Source: Pseudomonas sp. ADAK13
GTDB taxonomy: Bacteria; Pseudomonadota; Gammaproteobacteria; Pseudomonadales; Pseudomonadaceae
Direction: 5' to 3'
Length of the DNA: 64,000 nucleotides
NCBI RefSeq assembly: GCF_012935715.1
Contig: NZ_CP052860.1
Span: 868,001-932,000, forward strand
Under the pieces are notes generated by a model that was not told the DNA's origin, did no database searches, and worked only from the letters and a program-made list of their open reading frames with translations. Position numbers and translations under genes: made by a program. Shown here piece after piece: positions 39,139 through 48,173 of the stretch. Each line of letters opens with the position of its first letter. Within the stretch, counting starts at the first letter, position 1.

Positions 39139-40581
39139 CTACTTGGAATGAAAACGCCGGTTCAATGCGATCCGCTTGGCCTCCACTTCCCGCAGGTGTT
39201 TGCGGTGACGGCGCCACAGCACCAGCACGATGATCAGTACCAACACCACAAAACCACCGCCCCACAACAGATACGGCATGGCAGTGATCAACAAGGGCAC
39301 ATCCCCACCGCGACGCAGGCTGGTGACTTCTTCGGAACTGACGCTCAGCGCCGGGTTGCCGAAGGTGTGCAGGCTGTAGTTGGCAATGGCGGCGATTTGC
39401 GCGTCGTTCAGGTCGCCGCCCAGGGCCGGCATGCTCACGGCACCATCGGCCCCTTTACGGTCGATGCCCGCGATGATCGCCATCACCAGGTTGTTGGCCT
39501 GGTTGCCGTTGAGCGCGGTGTTGAGGCTCAGGGACGGGTAAAACTTGTCGGCACTGCCCTGGCCATCGCGGCCATGGCAACTGGAACAGGCCGAGTTGTA
39601 GAGGCGTGCGCCATTCAGGCCGGTGGCATCGGCCAGTGAGGCCTGGTCGCCCTGGCCGGTTTCCAGGGTGCTCATGTCCACGGGTGTGACCTTGCGCACG
39701 ACGCGCTCGGTCTGCCCGGGGTCGCGGATCGGCGGCACGCTGTGCAGGTAGGCGGCCATGGCGTGCAGGTCGCTGTCGCTGAGGTAGCGGAAGCTGTTTT
39801 CCACGGCTTCGGCCATGCCGCCTGCCGCCTGGGCCTTGTCGGCGAGGTGACCGTTTTTCAGGAAGTTGACCAGGTCGTCGTCGCTCCAGTCCCCCAGGCC
39901 ACTGACCTTGTCGGAGGTGATGTTGGGCGCGACCCATCCCCCCAGTTTCGCACCGGCCAGGTACTGGCTGTTGTCCTCGGCCATCAACGCATTACGCGGG
40001 GTGTGGCAGGCGCCGCAGTGGGCCAGGTTGTCCACCAGGTACTGGCCACGGCTGACCTGTTCGGTGGCGCCGGGCTTGGGTACAAAGCCCTGGCTGTCGA
40101 GGAACACCAGGTTCCAGCCGAACATCAGTTGGCGGATGTTGAACGGGAACGCCAGGTGGGTTTCCGGCACCGGTTGGTCCACGGCTTTGACGCCCTGTTG
40201 CAGGTACACGTACAAGGCGTGGATGTCGTCATCGCTCATGCCCTGGTACGAGGTGTAAGGCATTGCCGGGTACAAGTGCTGGCCCTTGGCGTTGATGCCT
40301 TTGCGCAAGGCGTCCGCCAGTTGCTGCTCGGTGTAGTCGCCGATGCCGTAGGCCTTAGACGGGGTGATGTTGCTGGAGATGATCTTGCCCATGGGCGAGT
40401 CGATCACATACCCGCCGGCCAGCGGCGCGCCGCCGTTTTCAGCCGTGCGGTGGCAGGCTTCGCAGTCGCCGGCACGGGCCACATAGGCGCCTTTCTGGAT
40501 CAGCGCGGCGGTGTCTTCAGCGGCAAACGCCGGCAACGCGGTGAGCAGCAAGGCCAGCAACGGAAATTTAAGCAATCCCAT
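39139..40581 (-). CDS. Triheme cytochrome c subunit of membrane sugar/alcohol dehydrogenase
   Basis: A 480-residue membrane-anchored cytochrome c. The signal peptide ends PAFAAED. Heme motifs are CEACH, CGACH and CSSCH. A single C-terminal helix (LLWGGGFVVLVLIIVLVL), followed by arginines, anchors it to the inner membrane. It passes electrons from the flavoprotein subunit to ubiquinone, as in gluconate, fructose and sorbitol dehydrogenases. It starts three bases after the GMC gene and is the last gene of the small-large-cytochrome operon. Confidence 0.92.
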   Translation of the reverse strand: MGLLKFPLLALLLTALPAFAAEDTAALIQKGAYVARAGDCEACHRTAENGGAPLAGGYVIDSPMGKIISSNITPSKAYGIGDYTEQQLADALRKGINAKGQHLYPAMPYTSYQGMSDDDIHALYVYLQQGVKAVDQPVPETHLAFPFNIRQLMFGWNLVFLDSQGFVPKPGATEQVSRGQYLVDNLAHCGACHTPRNALMAEDNSQYLAGAKLGGWVAPNITSDKVSGLGDWSDDDLVNFLKNGHLADKAQAAGGMAEAVENSFRYLSDSDLHAMAAYLHSVPPIRDPGQTERVVRKVTPVDMSTLETGQGDQASLADATGLNGARLYNSACSSCHGRDGQGSADKFYPSLSLNTALNGNQANNLVMAIIAGIDRKGADGAVSMPALGGDLNDAQIAAIANYSLHTFGNPALSVSSEEVTSLRRGGDVPLLITAMPYLLWGGGFVVLVLIIVLVLWRRHRKHLREVEAKRIALNRRFHSK

Positions 40582-40584
40582 GAC

Positions 40585-42174
40585 CTAGACCTCCCGCGCA
40601 ATGATGTCGGCCATACGGATACTCAGCGCCACGCCCGCCAGGGTCGGGTTGATGGTGCCGGACGCCGGGATCACCCCGGTGGTGGCGAGGAACAGGTTGG
40701 CGTGGTCGTGGGTGCGGCACTCGTGGTTGACCACCGAGTCCTTGGGGTTGGCGCCCATGATCACGGTGCCCATCAGGTGGTCGCGGTTCTGGTAGCCGGT
40801 GTTGTCTTCCACCACCGTGCCGCCCATCAGTTGCACGAAGTGCGCATAATCTTCGGTGACGCCGGCCTTGGCCGCCTTCACGTAATCGCCCACCTCGTAG
40901 TTGACCACCAGCATCGGGATGCCCAGGGCGTCCTTGCGGGTGCGGCTTGGGCGCACGGTGTTGGTCTGCAACGGCAGGGTTTCATACACGGTGGACACGT
41001 CGACCCAGCGCGCCGCGTCGTGGCGGATGCGCTCGTCCAGCTCCTTGCCGTACACGCCCTGGGCGATCAGCCGTTTGGCCACGGCAATGTTCGGCACGTT
41101 GTTGGAGATCGAGTGTTTGACCGAAGCACGCTCCTTGCGGAACTCACCGTCGCGACGATTGAAAATCCCGCCCTGTTGCACCGCCCCGCGCCCCGGCCAC
41201 AACGGCTCGTCGGCGATAAATTGCAGGCCCTGGCCGGTGTGGTCCATCAGGTTGCGACCGACCTGGTCGGAGGAGTTGGCGACCTCGGAAATCAGCAACA
41301 GCTTGGGGGTTTCCAGGCCATGGGCGGCGACGATGAAGTACTTGGCCGTGAGCCGCACATCGGCGCCGGTGGAGCTGCGGTAATGGATCGCGACGATCTT
41401 GTCGTCGGCGCCTTTTTCCAGCTTGTAAGCGGTGGCGTCGGTGATCAGCTTGGCGCCGGCCTGTTCAGCGTGGCGGGCATGCACGTCGCCGCTGTACATC
41501 GCCCCGATGGGGCAGACCGGCATGCAGTTGTTGTTGCCGCTGCACGCCGGGCGCCCGTCGTAGGGTTCGGTGGCGCGGCCGTTGGGCTCATGGATAAAGT
41601 GATACCCCGCCGGGGCCATGCGTTCGCGCAGGCGCTGGAACAGGTAGGTGTCGCCTTCCGGCGCCATCGGATAGGGGCTTGAGCGCGGCGGGAACGCGCC
41701 GCCGCCCTGCCCGCTCTGGTCCTGGGTGTCACTGCCGCACACGCCCAGGGCAATTTCTGCGCGCACGTAATAGGGTTCCAGCTCGCTGTATTCCAGCGGC
41801 CAGTCGCGACCTACGCCGTACAGGGTCTTGAGCTTCATATCGTTGGGCAAGTAACGCCAGCACGCCGCCGCCCAGTGCCAGGTGGTGCCGCCCACCAGTT
41901 TCAACATGCCGGGGCGGAACTCGAAAGAACCGGTGTTCTCAATGTATTGCTCATCATAAGAATGATGGGCCCACGGCTCATTCGGATACGGCGAGTTGTA
42001 ATTGCCTTTGTTCGACGAATTACGGAAGTTCTCGACTATCTTCCAGCGGGGAATATGTTCACCCGCTTCCAGAATAATCACCGACTTGCCGTGTTTGGCC
42101 AATTCAAATGCTGCGTTACTGCCTAATGCGCCGGAGCCAACCACAATGACATCGGCGTCAAAATCCTGATTCAT
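40585..42174 (-). CDS. GMC oxidoreductase, FAD catalytic subunit of sugar dehydrogenase complex
   Basis: A 529-residue GMC-family flavoprotein. The FAD-binding motif is VIVVGSGALGSNAAFELA. A cysteine cluster C211-x5-C217-x3-C221 (ACSGNNNCMPVCP) matches the spacing of the 3Fe-4S ligands in bacterial FAD-glucose and fructose dehydrogenases. The C-terminal catalytic region is ATTGVIPASGTINPTLAG. It has no own signal peptide and should be exported folded with the Tat small subunit. Substrate candidates are sorbitol, fructose, glucose or 2-ketogluconate; sequence alone does not decide. Confidence 0.9.
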   Translation of the reverse strand: MNQDFDADVIVVGSGALGSNAAFELAKHGKSVIILEAGEHIPRWKIVENFRNSSNKGNYNSPYPNEPWAHHSYDEQYIENTGSFEFRPGMLKLVGGTTWHWAAACWRYLPNDMKLKTLYGVGRDWPLEYSELEPYYVRAEIALGVCGSDTQDQSGQGGGAFPPRSSPYPMAPEGDTYLFQRLRERMAPAGYHFIHEPNGRATEPYDGRPACSGNNNCMPVCPIGAMYSGDVHARHAEQAGAKLITDATAYKLEKGADDKIVAIHYRSSTGADVRLTAKYFIVAAHGLETPKLLLISEVANSSDQVGRNLMDHTGQGLQFIADEPLWPGRGAVQQGGIFNRRDGEFRKERASVKHSISNNVPNIAVAKRLIAQGVYGKELDERIRHDAARWVDVSTVYETLPLQTNTVRPSRTRKDALGIPMLVVNYEVGDYVKAAKAGVTEDYAHFVQLMGGTVVEDNTGYQNRDHLMGTVIMGANPKDSVVNHECRTHDHANLFLATTGVIPASGTINPTLAGVALSIRMADIIAREV

Positions 42175-42188
42175 AAAAGTGCCTTGTC

Positions 42189-42725
42189 TTAGTCGTTGGC
42201 CAGCGTGGCCGGAGGATTAACCCAGTAATTGGTTTTTCCCCGGGAGTACGTCGGGATCACCGTGGCGTCTGCGGTTGGCGCGTAGGCCAGGGCGCCGGTG
42301 AAGGTCACCAGCCGCGTGCCGTCGGTGGCGCGCAGGGACACCGGGGTGCCGGTGTAACCCAGGTACCAGGCCGAAACGATTTTCTGCGTCGTGTCCTTGA
42401 CCACCGGGTCGCGGTAGAACGGGCTGCCGGACAACTGGCTGACGCTGCGCAGGTGATGCTGGCCGACCTTGCTCCACAAGGCTTTGATCTTCTCGGGGAA
42501 TGCAGGGTCGTTCTGGGTGCACTGGGCCAGGATGCGCAAGGACAAGGCGGCATCCAGGCTCGGGCGTTCGAGGAGGAACATCGACAATTGGCGGAAGGAT
42601 TCAATGTCATCGCTGGCGGCGCTGCTGACGTCCTGCGCCAGCGCGGCACCGGCCCACAGCGGGGCAAACAGGCCGGCGCCGGTCAAGGCTGCGCCTGAAT
42701 AAAGAAGTTTTCTTCGGGTTATCAC
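42189..42725 (-). CDS. Sugar dehydrogenase complex small subunit with Tat signal (FAD-SLDH small-subunit family)
   Basis: A 178-residue subunit. A GTG start at 42725 is chosen: GAGGAG lies seven bases upstream and the Tat signal ITRRKLLYSGAALTGAGLF then begins at once. The mature part shows the sorbitol-dehydrogenase small-subunit pattern IVSAWYLGYTG and IPTYSRGKTNYWVNPPA. It acts as the hitch-hiker carrier that exports the FAD subunit. First gene of the three-gene operon, 14 bases before the GMC gene. Confidence 0.88.
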   Translation of the reverse strand: MITRRKLLYSGAALTGAGLFAPLWAGAALAQDVSSAASDDIESFRQLSMFLLERPSLDAALSLRILAQCTQNDPAFPEKIKALWSKVGQHHLRSVSQLSGSPFYRDPVVKDTTQKIVSAWYLGYTGTPVSLRATDGTRLVTFTGALAYAPTADATVIPTYSRGKTNYWVNPPATLAND

Positions 42726-42858
42726 GGGGTATCTCCTCATGAGTCGAACAACAATCGGCGCAGAGGCCAAGTTCGACTTCACTGCAAAAGGCTGAGTACT
42801 TCGTTCACGGAGGTTGAACGGACTTTAAGAGCCCTTTTTATAACTGCCAGGAGAACGT

Positions 42859-42877
42859 CAAGCTGTCGTGCAGCTTG
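42859..42877. other. Hairpin between sugar dehydrogenase operon and SHMT-like gene
   Basis: Perfect inverted repeat caagctg / cagcttg with a five-base loop. No T run follows on the minus strand, so termination of the SHMT-like transcript is only possible, not clear. Confidence 0.3.
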
Positions 42878-42981
42878 TTAATTATGGATATAAGCAATAG
42901 CGCGACCGTCTATAACAGCCGCTTAAACACCGTACAGCAATTTATCCCGTAATAACATGAAACATCCCCCGGGGTAATGAC

Positions 42982-44343
42982 TCAGTCGGGCAGGTAATCC
43001 GTGAGGGGGTACTTCGCGCATAAGGTTCGGGCCTGTAAACGCAGGGATTCCTGCGCGACGGGATCGAGGGTGTATTTGTGCTCGTTGAGGGGCGTGACGG
43101 CGTCGAGTACCCGGCCAACCAGCTCGACTACCTGGCGGCATCCATGGGCATCCACGTGGCGTTGCGCCAGGGAGCCGCTACCGATACACAACCCGTTGGC
43201 AACAAATGACGGTCGCGTCTCACCCGGGGCGCGATGTTTGTCCACGATGATGCCGCATTGCTCCAGCGCCGCCTGGGCGACAGAGCCGGTGATGCCGCCA
43301 CGCAGGCGGATCAGGATCGAGTGGTTCTCACTGCGCCCGCCCACCACCTCGTAGTCACAGGCCTGAAACGCGTTGGCCAGTTCATCGGCGGTGGTGCGAA
43401 TCCGCGCCATCCAGGCGTCGAATTCCGCCGACATGGCGTAGCCGAACGCCGCCGCTTTCGCCGCGATCATGTTGAAGGCCGGCGCGCCCTGCATCCGCGG
43501 GAACACGGCCTGGTCGAGAAGACGACTGAAGGTGGTCTTGAGGCCGGGCACCTTGGTTTCCGCGTCGCGCCCGGAAAGGATCAGGCCGCCGCGCGGGCCG
43601 CCCAGTTGCCTGTGAGTGCACAGCGTGGTGACGTGGGCCGCGTCGACCGGGCTCGGATGGCGTCCGGTGGCGACCAGGCCGGCGACGGTCGAAATATCCG
43701 CCAGCAGGATCGACCCGGCTTCGTCGGCAATCGCGCGGAACCGTTCAAAATCGATGAGGTGCGAGTAGGCCGTCGCACCGCAGATGATCACGCGCGGGCG
43801 ATGGGCCAGCGCCTGTGTGCGCACCTGTTCGTAGTCGATCACGCCCTTGGAGGTGGTGCCATATCTGAGCGCCTTGTAGTACGCGCCAGTGAACGCCACC
43901 GGGCTGCCATGGCTCAGGGGCCCGCCATGATCGGTGGCCATGCCGAGCACCGTGTCGCCGGGCTCGAGCAAGGCCGCCAGCACCTGGTAGTTGGCCGTCG
44001 ATGCGGAGTGAGGTTGCACGCCGGCGTATTGCGCGCCGAACAGCTCACGCGCCCGGCGGACCGCCAGGGCTTCGACCCGGTCGGCGTTCTCGCAGCCGGC
44101 GTGATGACGCCAGCCAAGGGCACCCTCGGCGGTCACGTTGACCAGCACCGAGGCGGACGCCGCCAGGATGTGCGGCTTCACGGCGCAGGACGAAGCGGCC
44201 AGTGACAGGGTTTGGTGCTGGCGCGTGACTTCTGCATCCAGCAGCCCCGCCAGCTCTGCGTCTTCTGCCCGAAGATCCGTCCGCCCTCGTTGCAACAGGC
44301 CGGCGTGGTGGGTAAGTGGTTGCATGTTGACTGTCATAGTCAT
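42982..44343 (-). CDS. Serine hydroxymethyltransferase-like protein lacking the PLP lysine
   Basis: A 453-residue protein with the SHMT fold signature throughout: TAEGALGWRHHAGCE, RARELFGAQYAGVQPHSAST, LEPGDTVLGMATDHGGPLSHG and GPRGGLIL. The active site is altered. Where GlyA has THKTLRGPRGG this protein reads THRQLGGPRGG, so the Schiff-base lysine is R245. The catalytic glutamate of the SEN motif is absent (ASSCAV), the Tyr of YAEG is Thr, and DxAH reads DIST. These are coordinated substitutions rather than a single error. Threonine transaldolases are distant relatives but keep the lysine. It may bind a substrate or PLP non-covalently, or be a pseudoenzyme. It is divergent from the HTH/VUT transporter pair. 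Confidence 0.8.
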   Translation of the reverse strand: MTMTVNMQPLTHHAGLLQRGRTDLRAEDAELAGLLDAEVTRQHQTLSLAASSCAVKPHILAASASVLVNVTAEGALGWRHHAGCENADRVEALAVRRARELFGAQYAGVQPHSASTANYQVLAALLEPGDTVLGMATDHGGPLSHGSPVAFTGAYYKALRYGTTSKGVIDYEQVRTQALAHRPRVIICGATAYSHLIDFERFRAIADEAGSILLADISTVAGLVATGRHPSPVDAAHVTTLCTHRQLGGPRGGLILSGRDAETKVPGLKTTFSRLLDQAVFPRMQGAPAFNMIAAKAAAFGYAMSAEFDAWMARIRTTADELANAFQACDYEVVGGRSENHSILIRLRGGITGSVAQAALEQCGIIVDKHRAPGETRPSFVANGLCIGSGSLAQRHVDAHGCRQVVELVGRVLDAVTPLNEHKYTLDPVAQESLRLQARTLCAKYPLTDYLPD

Positions 44344-44614
44344 GTGTTCCTTCCCTGAAAATCCCGAGCACCTTTCCGTTGGGCGCAGGGCAATTAAGCA
44401 GAAAAATGAACATTTTCCAAATTAAATGATTCTTTTTGCCGGGGTACGGGGGGACAAGGCGCGGTTTTCCCTGGCTGGATGCTGGCCAATCGCCAAAAAA
44501 CTGATCACGGTCTTTATTCTTGTAGCGGGCGCATGCAACACTTCGCGCCGCGGCGAAGCCCGCAACCCGGCCAGAATGGACGCTCGGTGTAAAACATAAG
44601 GAAGTGGTGGGCAT

Positions 44615-45220
44615 TTGATTCATAGAAAAGAACGCACCGAGTATTTGAAGAGCAATATCAAATACCTGATCAAAAGCCGCGGAGAGACGCAGCTGTCGTT
44701 GTGCAACGCGGCCGGCCTGACCAGAACCACGATCTACAACATTCTGGAAGGCAAGGTCGTCAACGTACAGCAGTCCACCGTCCGCAAGATCTCGGATTTC
44801 TTTGGCGTCTCCTATGAAGAAATCGAGACCCTCGACTTTGAAGAAAAAGAAATCATCGACAGCAGTATTTCCCCCCAGGGAAATATGAACCCGGCTGCCG
44901 TGCCGATCATCAAGCAAAGCCTGGTCATGGCGAGCATGCACAAGCGCATTGGCGAACTCGCCACGCTGTACCCGCTGACCTACTACTTCGGCACCTCCTA
45001 CAACTTGATCGCTGTTCTGCTGGAACATGAAATTGCCGGCGTCAACGAGCCGGGGGATTTGTTGATCGTGCAGAAGGGCTCGTCGAGCGACGATAAGGAA
45101 AAGTTGGTGTACGACTGCGTCAGCAAAACACTATTCATCACGGATGAAGCGTGTGTGAGCTCGGATCGTATCTGTGTGGTGGGAGATATCATCGAGGAGC
45201 GCTTCAATGACCACGTATGA
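44615..45220 (+). CDS. HTH regulator with degenerate S24/LexA-like C-terminal domain
   Basis: A 201-residue protein. An XRE-type helix-turn-helix is read in LSLCNAAGLTRTTIYNILEG. The C-terminal half (NLIAVLLEHEIAGVNEPGDL and RICVVGDIIEERF) follows the S24 peptidase/LexA pattern but lacks the catalytic Ser-Met, so it would be a sensor rather than a protease. A TTG start at 44615 is used: AAGGAAG lies upstream and no ATG exists before residue 90. The gene overlaps the transporter start by 14 bases and is divergent from the SHMT-like gene, so it is the likely local regulator. Base composition is lower in GC than the flanks, suggesting acquisition. Confidence 0.75.
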   Translation: MIHRKERTEYLKSNIKYLIKSRGETQLSLCNAAGLTRTTIYNILEGKVVNVQQSTVRKISDFFGVSYEEIETLDFEEKEIIDSSISPQGNMNPAAVPIIKQSLVMASMHKRIGELATLYPLTYYFGTSYNLIAVLLEHEIAGVNEPGDLLIVQKGSSSDDKEKLVYDCVSKTLFITDEACVSSDRICVVGDIIEERFNDHV

Positions 45221-46103
45221 ACACGACGTCGAGAACAGCAAATACAAGTTGCTGGGGTTCGAGAATGACAAGAGCCTGGCGGTGATCATGGTGATCGCCA
45301 CGGGCAAGGTCATTCGAGTAAAGCTGAGCGAAGTGCTGAACAGCGAAATCATGGACAATTTAAATAAAATGGAAGTCAAGAACATGTACAAGAAGTTCTA
45401 TTCCCAGGGCGGGGCGCTCACCGCGTACGAGCTCAATGACCGCAATGAGAACTCATGGATGATCTATATCATCCTGAACTTGCTGCTCTTTACGTTCTAT
45501 ATCTTTACCAGCATCGCCGCGACCAAACCGATTTACCTGGAGTCGCTGGGCATTATCGTCACACCCGGCACGTTTCTGTACCCGCTGACATTCCTGATCG
45601 TGGACTTGCTCAACGAGCAGTTCGGCCTCCGGCTGGCGCGAAGGGCCATCCTGTTTGCGTTTGCCAGCAACGCGATGATCATCATCCTGCTCTACGGCTC
45701 GACCTTCCTCCCCGGCTTGCCCGGCTGGAAGCTCGACGGGCCTTACAACGACGTGATCATCCAGGTGTCGTCGGTGTTGATCGCCTCTTCGGTCTCGTTC
45801 CTGGTGTCGGAGAACATAAACTCGTACCTGCTGTGCAAGATCAAAGAGCTGACCAACTCCAGGTATTTATTCCTGCGGATTTTCCTGAGTACGTTTTTCG
45901 CGGTGATTATCGACAGCTTCCTGTTCTGCTTCATCGCGTTCTACGGCGCCATGCAGACCAGCGACATCCTGAACATGATCTATGTGCAGATCGCGATCAA
46001 AGTCTGCTTTGCCTTCTTCAACATCCTGCCGGCCTATGGCGCCCGCTCGTTGTTCAAGCGCTACATCACAGGCGATAACCAGGCTGCGCAGCAAGCCAAC
46101 TGA
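45207..46103 (+). CDS. VUT-family (queuosine precursor) transporter with N-terminal soluble extension
   Basis: A 298-residue protein starting at 45207, seven bases after GAGGAG. Residues 1-90 are soluble (YKLLGFENDKSLAVIMVIAT...) and not part of the usual YhhQ/VUT fold. From about residue 92 come six or so membrane helices with VUT features: SIAATKPIYLESLGIIVTPG, TFLIVDLLNEQFG and NILPAYGARSLFKR. YhhQ-type proteins import 7-cyano-7-deazaguanine or related queuosine precursors. A QueC gene converges on it from the next position. The extension could sense or bind substrate. Translation is coupled to the HTH gene. Confidence 0.8.
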   Translation: MTTYEHDVENSKYKLLGFENDKSLAVIMVIATGKVIRVKLSEVLNSEIMDNLNKMEVKNMYKKFYSQGGALTAYELNDRNENSWMIYIILNLLLFTFYIFTSIAATKPIYLESLGIIVTPGTFLYPLTFLIVDLLNEQFGLRLARRAILFAFASNAMIIILLYGSTFLPGLPGWKLDGPYNDVIIQVSSVLIASSVSFLVSENINSYLLCKIKELTNSRYLFLRIFLSTFFAVIIDSFLFCFIAFYGAMQTSDILNMIYVQIAIKVCFAFFNILPAYGARSLFKRYITGDNQAAQQAN

Positions 46104-46111
46104 TCGGTGAA

Positions 46112-46136
46112 CGTTCCCGTGCTCAGCACGGGAACG
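46112..46136. terminator. Hairpin between convergent VUT and queC genes
   Basis: cgttcccgtgc / gcacgggaacg form a perfect 11-bp stem with a three-base loop in the 40-bp gap between convergent genes. There is no clear T run; it resembles half of the 21232 repeat family and probably serves as a bidirectional transcript end. Confidence 0.55.
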
Positions 46137-46143
46137 CTCGGCA

Positions 46144-46836
46144 TCAAGCCAATTTGCTTTTCAGGCTCTGCAGGACGGCTGCCTTGTTTTCCAGGTAGTC
46201 GTTCAGGCCACGTGCGCGAAGGTTGCACGCATCGCAGTTGCCACACCCCGTGCCGATGATGCCGTTGTAGCAGGTCAGGGTCTGGTTGCGGATCAGGTCC
46301 AGCTGGTGGTGATAGTCCGCCAGGGCCCAGGTCTCGGCCTTGTTCAGCCACATCAGCGGCGTCTCCAGACGCACGTCGTATTCCATGCCCAGTTGCAGCG
46401 CTTTATTCAGCGCCTTGACGAACTCGTCCCGGCAATCCGGGTAACCCGAGAAGTCGGTTTCACACACGCCGGTGATCACGGTTTCTGCCTTGACCTGATA
46501 GGCGTAAATCGCCGCCAGGGTCAAAAACAGAATGTTCCGGCCCGGCACGAAGGTGCTTGGCAGGCTCTCGCCGGAGCTGTTCACCGTGGGCACCGGAATG
46601 TTGTCGCGGGTCAGGCTGCTGATGGCCAGCTCGTTCAGCAGGGACACGTCCATCACCTTGTGAACGGTGGCGCCCAGCTGCCTGGCGAGTTTCTGCGCGA
46701 CTTCGATTTCTGCCACATGCCGCTGGCCATAGTCGAAGGTAATGCAGTGCACCTCGTCATACAGCGGCAGTGCCTGGATCAGGCAGGTCGTCGAGTCCTG
46801 CCCACCACTGAAGACGATAACGGCTTTTTTACTCAT
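46144..46836 (-). CDS. queC: 7-cyano-7-deazaguanine synthase QueC, enterobacterial type
   Basis: A 230-residue QueC that converts 7-carboxy-7-deazaguanine to preQ0 with ATP and ammonia. The PP-loop is [36 protein letters not shown] and [15 protein letters not shown] are diagnostic. The zinc site is the cysteine group in [14 protein letters not shown]. The start at 46836 is chosen, with GGAAGC upstream. The sequence is close to E. coli QueC and unlike the QueC normally next to tol-pal in Pseudomonas, so it may be a second, transferred copy supplying preQ0 beside a VUT transporter. Confidence 0.92.
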
Positions 46837-46888
46837 CACGCTGCTTCCTGCATTTGTAAGATTTGGCATAGTTTAAAGGCCCCTCAAT

Positions 46889-46925
46889 AAAAAACCCCGC
46901 GCTTCTTTCGAAGGCGGGGTTTTTT
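46889..46925 (-). terminator. Rho-independent terminator of the cyo operon
   Basis: Minus-strand stem CCCCGCCTTCGAA / GAAGCGCGGGG followed by TTTTTT, 14 bases after the cyoE stop codon. A-rich sequence on the other side makes it potentially bidirectional. Confidence 0.9.
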
Positions 46926-46938
46926 ACTGCTTGATCAC

Positions 46939-47826
46939 TCAGTGGGCGTACGTCAGCAGCAACTCTTTCGGCACCTGGAAATCCAGGGACATCATCACGC
47001 TCAAGGCGGTGATGGTGAAGATCGAGAAGACGAACAGCTTGCGTGCCCAGACGGTGTCATCCACCGCCTTGTAGCCGGTCCAGGCCATGTACAACCAGTA
47101 CATGCCCATGGCGGCGGCGACGGCGAGGTAGCTCATGCCGGCGTAGCCACTGAAGGTCAACATCAAGGTCGCCACGAGGAAGGCCAGGATGTAGAGCAGG
47201 ATGTGTTTCTTGGCGACCCGGATGCCACGCTTGACCGGCAGGACCGGAATCGAAGCAGCCAGGTAGTCGTTGAAGCGGAAGATCGCAATGGCATAAGAGT
47301 GCGGCATCTGCCACAGGCTGAACATCACCAGTAGCACCAGCGCGGCCATGTCGAAGCTATTGGTCACAGCCACATAACCAATCACCGGCGGCATCGCCCC
47401 CGACAGACTGCCCACCAGCGTGCCGTGAACCGACTTGCGCTTGAGGTACAGGCTGTAGAAGCCGACGTAGATGACAAAACCGATCACGGCAAACAGCGCC
47501 GCCAGCGGGTTGGCCACCTTGTACAACAACACCACGCCTGCGATACCCAAAACGGTCGCGAAGATCAGTGCCAGCTTCAGGGAGATAAGGCCCTGCACCA
47601 GCACACGATTCTTGGTGCGCTCCATCTTGATGTCGATATCGCGGTCGATGCAGTTGTTGAATACACAACCGGAAGCTACCACCAAGGACGTGCCGATCAT
47701 CGCAGCCAGGAATATGGCCAGATCGACATGCCCCTTGGAGGCCAGGAAGAAACCGCCTGCCACAGAAAGCACGTTACCGAAAATGATCCCCGGTTTGGTG
47801 ATTTGGATAAAGTGCTTAAGCGACAT
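46939..47826 (-). CDS. cyoE: Protoheme IX farnesyltransferase (heme O synthase)
   Basis: A 295-residue UbiA-family membrane prenyltransferase that makes heme O for the bo3 oxidase. The conserved aspartate-rich motif is [18 protein letters not shown], with a second motif region at [20 protein letters not shown], and about nine helices. Last gene of the cyo operon, 11 bases after cyoD. Confidence 0.96.
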
Positions 47827-47837
47827 CGGGTCTTACC

Positions 47838-48173
47838 TCACTTCGCCATCATGAACGTATGGATGCTGAACATGATCCATACCGACAGGCCAACCAGCAG
47901 GAGGATCACCAAGCCTGCGAACACGAACGCAATCACGTTATCGCGTTGAGCCTTCGAGCGGTCCAGGTGCAGGAAGTACACCAGGTGAACCAGCACCTGA
48001 ATCACCGCGAACGCCAGGACGATCATCAAGGTGATCGACTTCGGCAAGGTTGGGTACATCACCAGGCCGAACGGGATCAGCGTCAGGATGACCGACAGGA
48101 TGAAGCCGATGGCGTACGACTTGACGCTGCCGTGGCTGTCATCGTGGCTGTCATGGGAATGTGCATTAGCCAT
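47838..48173 (-). CDS. cyoD: Cytochrome bo3 ubiquinol oxidase subunit IV
   Basis: A 111-residue subunit with three membrane helices and a histidine-rich N-terminus (ANAHSHDSHDDSHG). It helps assembly of the CuB/heme site in the oxidase. Its first base overlaps the last base of cyoC. Confidence 0.95.
   Translation of the reverse strand: MANAHSHDSHDDSHGSVKSYAIGFILSVILTLIPFGLVMYPTLPKSITLMIVLAFAVIQVLVHLVYFLHLDRSKAQRDNVIAFVFAGLVILLLVGLSVWIMFSIHTFMMAK

Follow-up and report, generated by a model that had tools for sequence, protein, structure and literature searches.

A VUT-family transporter gene paired with a helix-turn-helix regulator gene beside QueC or QueF: a candidate preQ0-linked regulatory module on chromosomes and plasmids

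Why is a gene for a queuosine-precursor transporter kept next to a gene for a DNA-binding regulator and a second gene for preQ0 synthesis? The question is raised by a four-gene locus at positions 42982 to 46836 of a 64,000-nucleotide stretch of the Pseudomonas sp. ADAK13 genome (contig NZ_CP052860.1, positions 868,001 to 932,000), hereafter called the window. Queuosine precursors serve as a micronutrient and as a building block of tRNA, and preQ1 is also a riboswitch ligand. By sequence comparison, the gene for a helix-turn-helix (HTH) regulator and the gene for a VUT/COG1738-family transporter form a pair that is mostly joined by a predicted QueC or QueF gene, and such sets are found on chromosomes and plasmids beside unrelated genes. 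This arrangement may represent a preQ0-linked sensory or regulatory module that controls neighbouring genes, a reading to which we give an even chance.

The HTH-VUT pair and its neighbours on chromosomes

The features of the locus are as follows, in window coordinates.

42982..44343, minus strand: serine hydroxymethyltransferase (SHMT)-like protein of 453 amino acids (PF00464, PRK00011.1)
44401..44418, no strand: candidate operator GAAAAATGAACATTTTCC, an imperfect palindrome that lies some 60 bp upstream of where the SHMT-like gene starts and is no more than suggestive
44615..45220, plus strand: XRE/Cro-C1-type HTH regulator of 201 amino acids with a TTG start (PF13443, HTH_26; PF01381, HTH_3)
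45207..46103, plus strand: VUT/COG1738-family queuosine-precursor transporter with an ATG at 45207 (PF02592, TIGR00697)
46144..46836, minus strand: QueC2, a second 7-cyano-7-deazaguanine synthase of enterobacterial (PRK11106) type, assigned by PRK11106, motifs and tree; an alternative in-frame upstream ATG lies at 46869

The VUT protein was scanned against 84,980 species genomes; of 101 confirmed relatives, the best 80 were used as loci. They comprise 68 from Pseudomonas, 11 from Enterobacterales (Serratia, Pantoea, Xenorhabdus) and one from an unclassified gammaproteobacterial metagenome-assembled genome. The HTH gene lies directly upstream of the VUT gene in 80 of 80 loci; overlap of the two genes is seen in many loci, including the window, and is lacking in others such as L097 and L098. 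Among the 68 Pseudomonas loci, QueC2 adjoins VUT in 62, the SHMT-like gene is present in 44 and cyoE accompanies the set in 36. Other Pseudomonas sites carry an amino-acid-permease-like gene (read from the sequence, with no scan) or DUF6124-type genes (one scanned). In the Enterobacterales, genes of a single QueF-type cluster follow VUT instead of QueC in 11 of 11 loci, and the three members scanned were QueF by NCBIfam equivalog. QueC makes preQ0 and QueF consumes it, so that their alternation beside VUT points to preQ0 as the metabolite common to both types of set.

A second survey covered 199 Pseudomonas genomes drawn evenly, with thresholds of E<=1e-60 for VUT and QueC2 and E<=1e-150 for the SHMT-like protein. 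VUT was found in 40 genomes, QueC2 in 46 and the SHMT-like protein in 20. VUT and QueC2 occur together in 35 genomes, within 160 bp of each other in 34 and split over two contigs in one (Fisher p 5e-24 over the 199 genomes, a value that ignores relatedness). In five VUT genomes QueC2 gave no match; one of the five retains a QueC2 remnant. The SHMT-like protein and VUT coincide in 19 genomes (19 of 20 with the former, 19 of 40 with the latter), leaving 21 of the 40 VUT genomes without it. Judged from these counts, the four genes are not one tight cassette: HTH and VUT form an obligate adjacent pair, with QueC a strong partner and the SHMT-like gene a looser one.

These results bear on the initial annotation, made from the window sequence alone. 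The four genes do lie where it had placed them, with a sugar dehydrogenase gene set on one side and cyoE on the other, and, the S24 label apart, family matches agree with its assignments. The coordinates likewise agree that regulator and transporter overlap (by 14 nt) and that the SHMT-like gene is divergent from the HTH gene; queC2 is convergent with VUT. Its proposal of a single cassette holds for HTH-VUT(-QueC); equal membership of the SHMT-like gene is not supported (20 of 199 genomes; 19 of 40 VUT genomes). Two questions had been set beforehand: whether the neighbours co-occur outside this strain, which they do, and whether QueC is a fixed neighbour of cyo, which it is not, given that QueC2 is in 46 of 199 genomes and cyoE in 36 of 68 loci. 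On the other flank, the GMC dehydrogenase and FAD-SLDH subunit genes (window 39139-42782) adjoin the module only in L029-L033, 5 of the 83 loci compared.

Copies beside plasmid transfer operons

The window-family HTH, termed type A, matched 22 records of the plasmid collection by tblastn, from Serratia (12), Vibrio (5), Arsenophonus (4) and Cedecea (1). Four of the Vibrio records are replicons of 1.8-2.1 Mb without annotation; these are probably second chromosomes and were not counted as plasmid contexts. Nine Serratia F-type plasmids share the order traM, an HTH gene, the HTH-VUT pair with queC antisense, and traA (traM and the second HTH are unannotated in two of them, and queC in two). In pJSRIV006, HTH-VUT-queF is divergent from traY-traY-traA, and in pE36_3, HTH-VUT-queC stands before genes for a transglycosylase and VirB3- and VirB4-type proteins. 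The S. symbiotica copy is HTH-VUT-queC, with type IV pilus genes a few kb further on. HTH-VUT-queF is divergent from a VirB operon in Arsenophonus paNv_CAN7, and two further Arsenophonus plasmids have an interrupted VUT together with queF. The pair on Vibrio p2-ED002 is divergent from trbC-E genes. Thus the initial suggestion of a conserved, horizontally distributed and deazaguanine-linked system is borne out for HTH-VUT with QueC or QueF, found in Pseudomonas, Serratia, Pantoea, Xenorhabdus, Cedecea and Arsenophonus.

Rpn family nuclease/transposase genes lie near three plasmid copies (L143:7281-8207, L144:13162-14094 and L146:11928-12866). One Cedecea copy (L154:5381-9149) has queF followed by the guanine deaminase gene guaD, and a queC copy (L142) is on the same plasmid.

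The traM-traY/traA interval, which we take to be the traJ position of F-like plasmids, was then compared across plasmids. With traA-traB of pS50079-3 as the query, at least 5000 records were matched, mostly Klebsiella and E. coli F-type plasmids; of the 40 matches listed, the 28 from Serratia with coverage of 97% or more made up the slot set. One of three VUT+HTH modules occupies the slot in 22 of these 28 plasmids (type A in 9, type B in 10, type C in 3), and in all 22 the matched gene ends within 2.42 kb upstream of traA. Typing relied on the HTH match for types A and B and on the VUT match for type C, and the neighbourhoods examined numbered nine, three and two, respectively. The type B HTH-VUT genes are at L174:5102-6513, L178:4102-5513 and L179:4102-5513; the HTH match is partial in record CP123617. 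The type B VUT is 23% identical to the window VUT by BLASTP, with a profile match over its full length, extension included. Type C comprises VUT, a metallophosphoesterase, a hypothetical gene and an HTH regulator (L175:3923-6433, L180:2924-5434), and scanning of one type C regulator gave a Peptidase_S24 match that exceeds the cut-off. Where traY is annotated in type B and C copies, it and the HTH gene are transcribed divergently. Relatives of the type C VUT also gave matches on Arsenophonus and Cedecea plasmids.

Of the remaining six plasmids, three carry type D and one is cut by the start of the record. Type D places a hybrid sensor kinase, a glycosyltransferase of family 9 and an HTH regulator upstream of traA, and the one regulator scanned has BetR and receiver domains (coordinates L176:2122-6149, L181:2122-6149 and L183:2122-6149). 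The slot of a Pantoea plasmid holds a protein annotated as PAS fold, whose Pfam PAS match is under cut-off. The examined slots are therefore filled by sensors or regulators, including three kinds of VUT+HTH, which is the strongest argument that HTH-VUT may be a sensory unit. This argument is post hoc, the plasmids are interrelated and the theme is found mainly in Serratia.

The four proteins of the window

QueC2 reaches 440.5 bits against PRK11106 (cut-off 378), and the window protein has all five canonical motifs, SGGxDS, YxQxHxxE, VPxRN, YPDC and C(x)8CxxCxxC, a set taken from the available part of PMC13329287. Each motif is present in 84-85 of 85 Pseudomonas QueC2 rows (some being the same gene in overlapping loci) and in 12 of 12 plasmid QueC rows, two of them partial. 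In a control, the zinc pattern, written with Y following the first Cys, was found in 0 of 2 QueC1 proteins and 8 of 13 rows from enterobacterial-order genomes, so the pattern as written is type-specific. The host genome (7.30 Mb) also encodes a housekeeping-type QueC1 at C1:645577, 40% identical to QueC2. In the survey, 186 of 199 genomes had QueC1 (E<=1e-60). Of the 13 that lacked it, 11 are near-complete and all carry QueC2, and the other two, of 87-88% completeness, have no QueC2. The association of QueC1 absence with QueC2 presence gave a Fisher p of 4.9e-8 over 194 near-complete genomes, again ignoring relatedness. Because the motifs are canonical and QueC1 is missing only together with QueC2 among near-complete genomes, QueC2 is very likely a working preQ0 synthase. 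In Pseudomonas this points to replacement of the housekeeping QueC by a horizontally acquired one.

A QueC tree was built from 60 rows chosen from those found. The 40 Pseudomonas QueC2 rows all fall into a single group (99/98) that is separate from Pseudomonas QueC1 and lies amid chromosomal QueC of enterobacterial type; the five QueC rows from plasmids are not part of it. QueC2 rows with and without HTH-VUT are interspersed, a pattern that fits one main acquisition followed by movement and repeated loss of HTH-VUT. Nine of the 11 QueC2 genomes without VUT have QueC2 adjoining cyoE. The initial annotation had taken low GC content and the enterobacterial QueC as signs of acquired DNA. The GC content of HTH (0.517) and VUT (0.527) is indeed low. 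At third codon positions, HTH (0.728) is somewhat below its neighbours (0.78-0.84), and VUT (0.833) and QueC2 (0.805) are not, which makes composition weak evidence of acquisition; the QueC tree, in which the enterobacterial affinity stands, is the better evidence.

The VUT protein scores 122.6 bits against Vut_1 (PF02592; cut-off 27.2) and 92.3 against TIGR00697 (cut-off 50.95), and only 39.4 against PRK11212, the YhhQ equivalog, far under its cut-off of 252. Its description as extended is upheld: about 80 N-terminal residues (about 1-84) are common to the 24 chosen homologues in the alignment. Elsewhere the extension was found in 5 of 398 genomes of the phylum, four Pseudomonas and one from another family of the class, and in 2 of 197 genomes in the order of that one non-Pseudomonas carrier. 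Seven chosen pairs gave ratios of nonsynonymous to synonymous substitution rates (dN/dS) of 0.02-0.07, indicating strong purifying selection. The predicted structure (mean pLDDT, a per-residue confidence score, of 65) was judged too weak for a fold search. The VUT of a P. yamanorum representative is 99% identical, placing the host near that species, and the host genome has a further VUT-like match whose score is under the family cut-off. No HTH or VUT relative was confirmed in viral contigs, and phage records gave two weak matches to the VUT core.

The HTH protein had been called S24-like. The HTH assignment stands (PF13443, PF01381) and the S24 label is unproved: there is no Pfam S24 match, and the VIA-align rows are dominated by the HTH domain. 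The AlphaFold2 model (mean pLDDT 85.8) has a beta-rich, uncertain C-terminal domain, and the best whole-length Foldseek match, to 7jvt (a lambda-186 hybrid repressor), is weak (TM 0.29). An Rfam scan of 42000-47900 for riboswitches or known RNAs gave three matches, all under the gathering score.

The SHMT-like protein scores 338.8 bits against PF00464 (cut-off 27) and 374.1 against NCBIfam PRK00011.1 (cut-off 335). We compared 49 rows, the window included and some strains possibly counted twice, with 20 canonical SHMTs. At position 245, that of the lysine binding pyridoxal phosphate in SHMT, the window protein has Arg, and at position 386, that of the arginine binding the substrate carboxylate, it has Cys. 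Over the 49 rows, position 245 is K in 38, R in 5, T in 5 and Q in 1, and position 386 is C in 30 and R in 19. The label of lysine-less SHMT is thus right for the window gene and wrong as a family trait. Many further canonical-invariant positions are altered. Judged by these residues, it is a diverged SHMT-fold protein and probably no working SHMT in this strain. The dN/dS of 0.11-0.17 (7 chosen pairs) indicates purifying selection, and hence retention of the protein. The gene has a real, if loose, link to the module; lying divergent from the HTH gene, it is more a candidate target than a partner in a pathway. A gene for a 70% identical protein (L026:8212-9567) is present in Pseudomonas G006, a genome without VUT or QueC2 at E<=1e-60.

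Possible function and comparison with known systems

In the proposed regulatory module, VUT would carry preQ0 or preQ1 across the membrane, or sense them, a role suggested by the linkage to QueC and QueF. QueC or QueF would set the internal preQ0 pool. The HTH protein would read this pool, either directly via its C-terminal domain or through the N-terminal domain of VUT, and would control its own operon and an adjacent gene or operon. Its targets might be transfer genes on plasmids and perhaps the SHMT-like gene, or DUF6124-type genes, in Pseudomonas. QueC2 would also feed normal queuosine synthesis in this lineage.

Of 117 regions upstream of HTH, 46 contain the half-site pair AATGA/TCATT at 9/10 or better, compared with 7.8% of resampled sequences; permuted half-sites gave a median of 7 regions, and the AAATG permutation, overlapping these sites, gave 55. 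An AAATGA/TCATTT palindrome recurs upstream of HTH at differing positions. Several observations weigh against the regulatory module. A general palindrome scan upstream of HTH was not above shuffles; since the half-site scan was post hoc and the loci are related and phylogenetically redundant, the operator is only a candidate. On chromosomes, no QueC2 lies beside the pair in 6 of 68 Pseudomonas loci (one contig ends there), and the Serratia copies mostly have a co-directional cytosine-permease-like gene upstream and no divergent target. Internal stops interrupt the VUT frame in 4 of 40 Pseudomonas genomes, and VUT is absent from 11 of 46 QueC2 genomes, so the HTH-VUT pair is dispensable. On plasmids, neither queC nor queF is annotated on Vibrio p2-ED002, and the Cedecea plasmid has two copies with no transfer genes nearby in the stretches examined. 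By BLASTP the window HTH is not significantly similar to the type B or type C regulators (profile probability 25% for B), which makes the common slot a theme and not a single lineage. Finally, although F-type tra regions are common, only 22 records matched the type A HTH, and the type B HTH gave 11 Serratia records and 8 distant matches; Serratia is therefore the centre of the theme.

The best-placed alternative is plain queuosine salvage with local autoregulation, in which HTH only represses VUT, and perhaps QueC2 or QueF, when deazaguanine is plentiful, and the SHMT-like and tra genes are chance neighbours. We consider it a serious contender, if a somewhat doubtful one. The linkage of the pair to QueC and QueF suits it, as does the absence of QueC1 from 11 QueC2 genomes, where QueC2 probably feeds the ordinary pathway. 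According to the available part of PMC5372724, E. coli YhhQ, a COG1738 member, is required for salvage of preQ0 and preQ1. However, salvage leaves unexplained why three VUT+HTH types sit in one traM-traA slot in 22 of 28 Serratia plasmids, and why VUT has a constant regulator partner and an N-terminal extension. A second alternative is that the set is mobile cargo inserted by chance beside transfer operons, with no regulatory role there. Plasmids do carry cargo near variable regions, and the Cedecea copies fit this, but the examined slots always hold sensors or regulators (types A, B and C with HTH, type D with a hybrid kinase and HTH) and the type B and C regulators are divergent from traY where it is annotated; we regard cargo as improbable. 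A deazaguanine-derived natural product, as the initial annotation had allowed, or a DNA-modification system with the SHMT-like protein as tailoring enzyme is very improbable: that gene is under purifying selection, but its active site is degenerate and VUT often occurs without it, the plasmid copies have in common only HTH, VUT and mostly QueC or QueF, no tailoring genes were noticed in the stretches examined, and no TGT/DpdA-like gene was noticed in their annotations, with no DpdA-aimed search made.

The regulatory module can be extended to a more specific and unlikely proposal, which we advance tentatively: preQ0 or preQ1 would be an intracellular or intercellular conjugation signal, with plasmid QueC or QueF, VUT and HTH in the traJ slot gating transfer. 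The Pseudomonas copy would be a domesticated one that controls the SHMT-like pseudo-enzyme and took over preQ0 supply in some lineages. If true, queuosine precursors would be a signalling currency for horizontal gene transfer, acting via a protein-based, plasmid-borne module that ties transcription to their transport and synthesis and sits at conjugation operons. The module also bears on the retention of VUT proteins and of second QueC or QueF copies by bacteria. That QueC alternates with QueF, that 11 QueC2 genomes lack QueC1 and that plasmid copies lie at conjugation operons are findings beyond the initial annotation. Among the matches listed from open-licence PubMed Central, none links a VUT/COG1738 protein to a neighbouring HTH regulator or to the control of conjugation in its title or the opening of its abstract, and the novelty of the module is accordingly provisional.

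Several known systems resemble parts of it. Genes for preQ0 synthesis are likewise found on conjugative elements as queCDE on Mesorhizobium symbiosis integrative and conjugative elements; the available part of PMC8627217 describes them under cargo genes and describes no VUT-HTH module. Like YhhQ/COG1738 transporters, the window VUT is above the PF02592 and TIGR00697 cut-offs and lies beside queuosine genes, but it differs in the N-terminal extension of about 80 residues, the constant HTH partner and the failure to reach PRK11212. QueC2 shares all five catalytic and zinc motifs with canonical QueC (cluster 1 in the available part of PMC13329287) and meets PRK11106, but groups with enterobacterial QueC rather than Pseudomonas QueC1 and is linked to a transporter-regulator pair. 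The window HTH combines an HTH with a beta-rich C-terminal domain, as do LexA/CI-like XRE-S24 regulators, yet has no S24 match, unlike the type C slot regulator with its Peptidase_S24 match. As for TraJ-type regulators, the plasmid modules share with them the interval upstream of traY/traA (the window copy being chromosomal), but where TraJ is a PAS-like protein, the modules consist of an XRE-type HTH regulator, VUT and a preQ0 enzyme.

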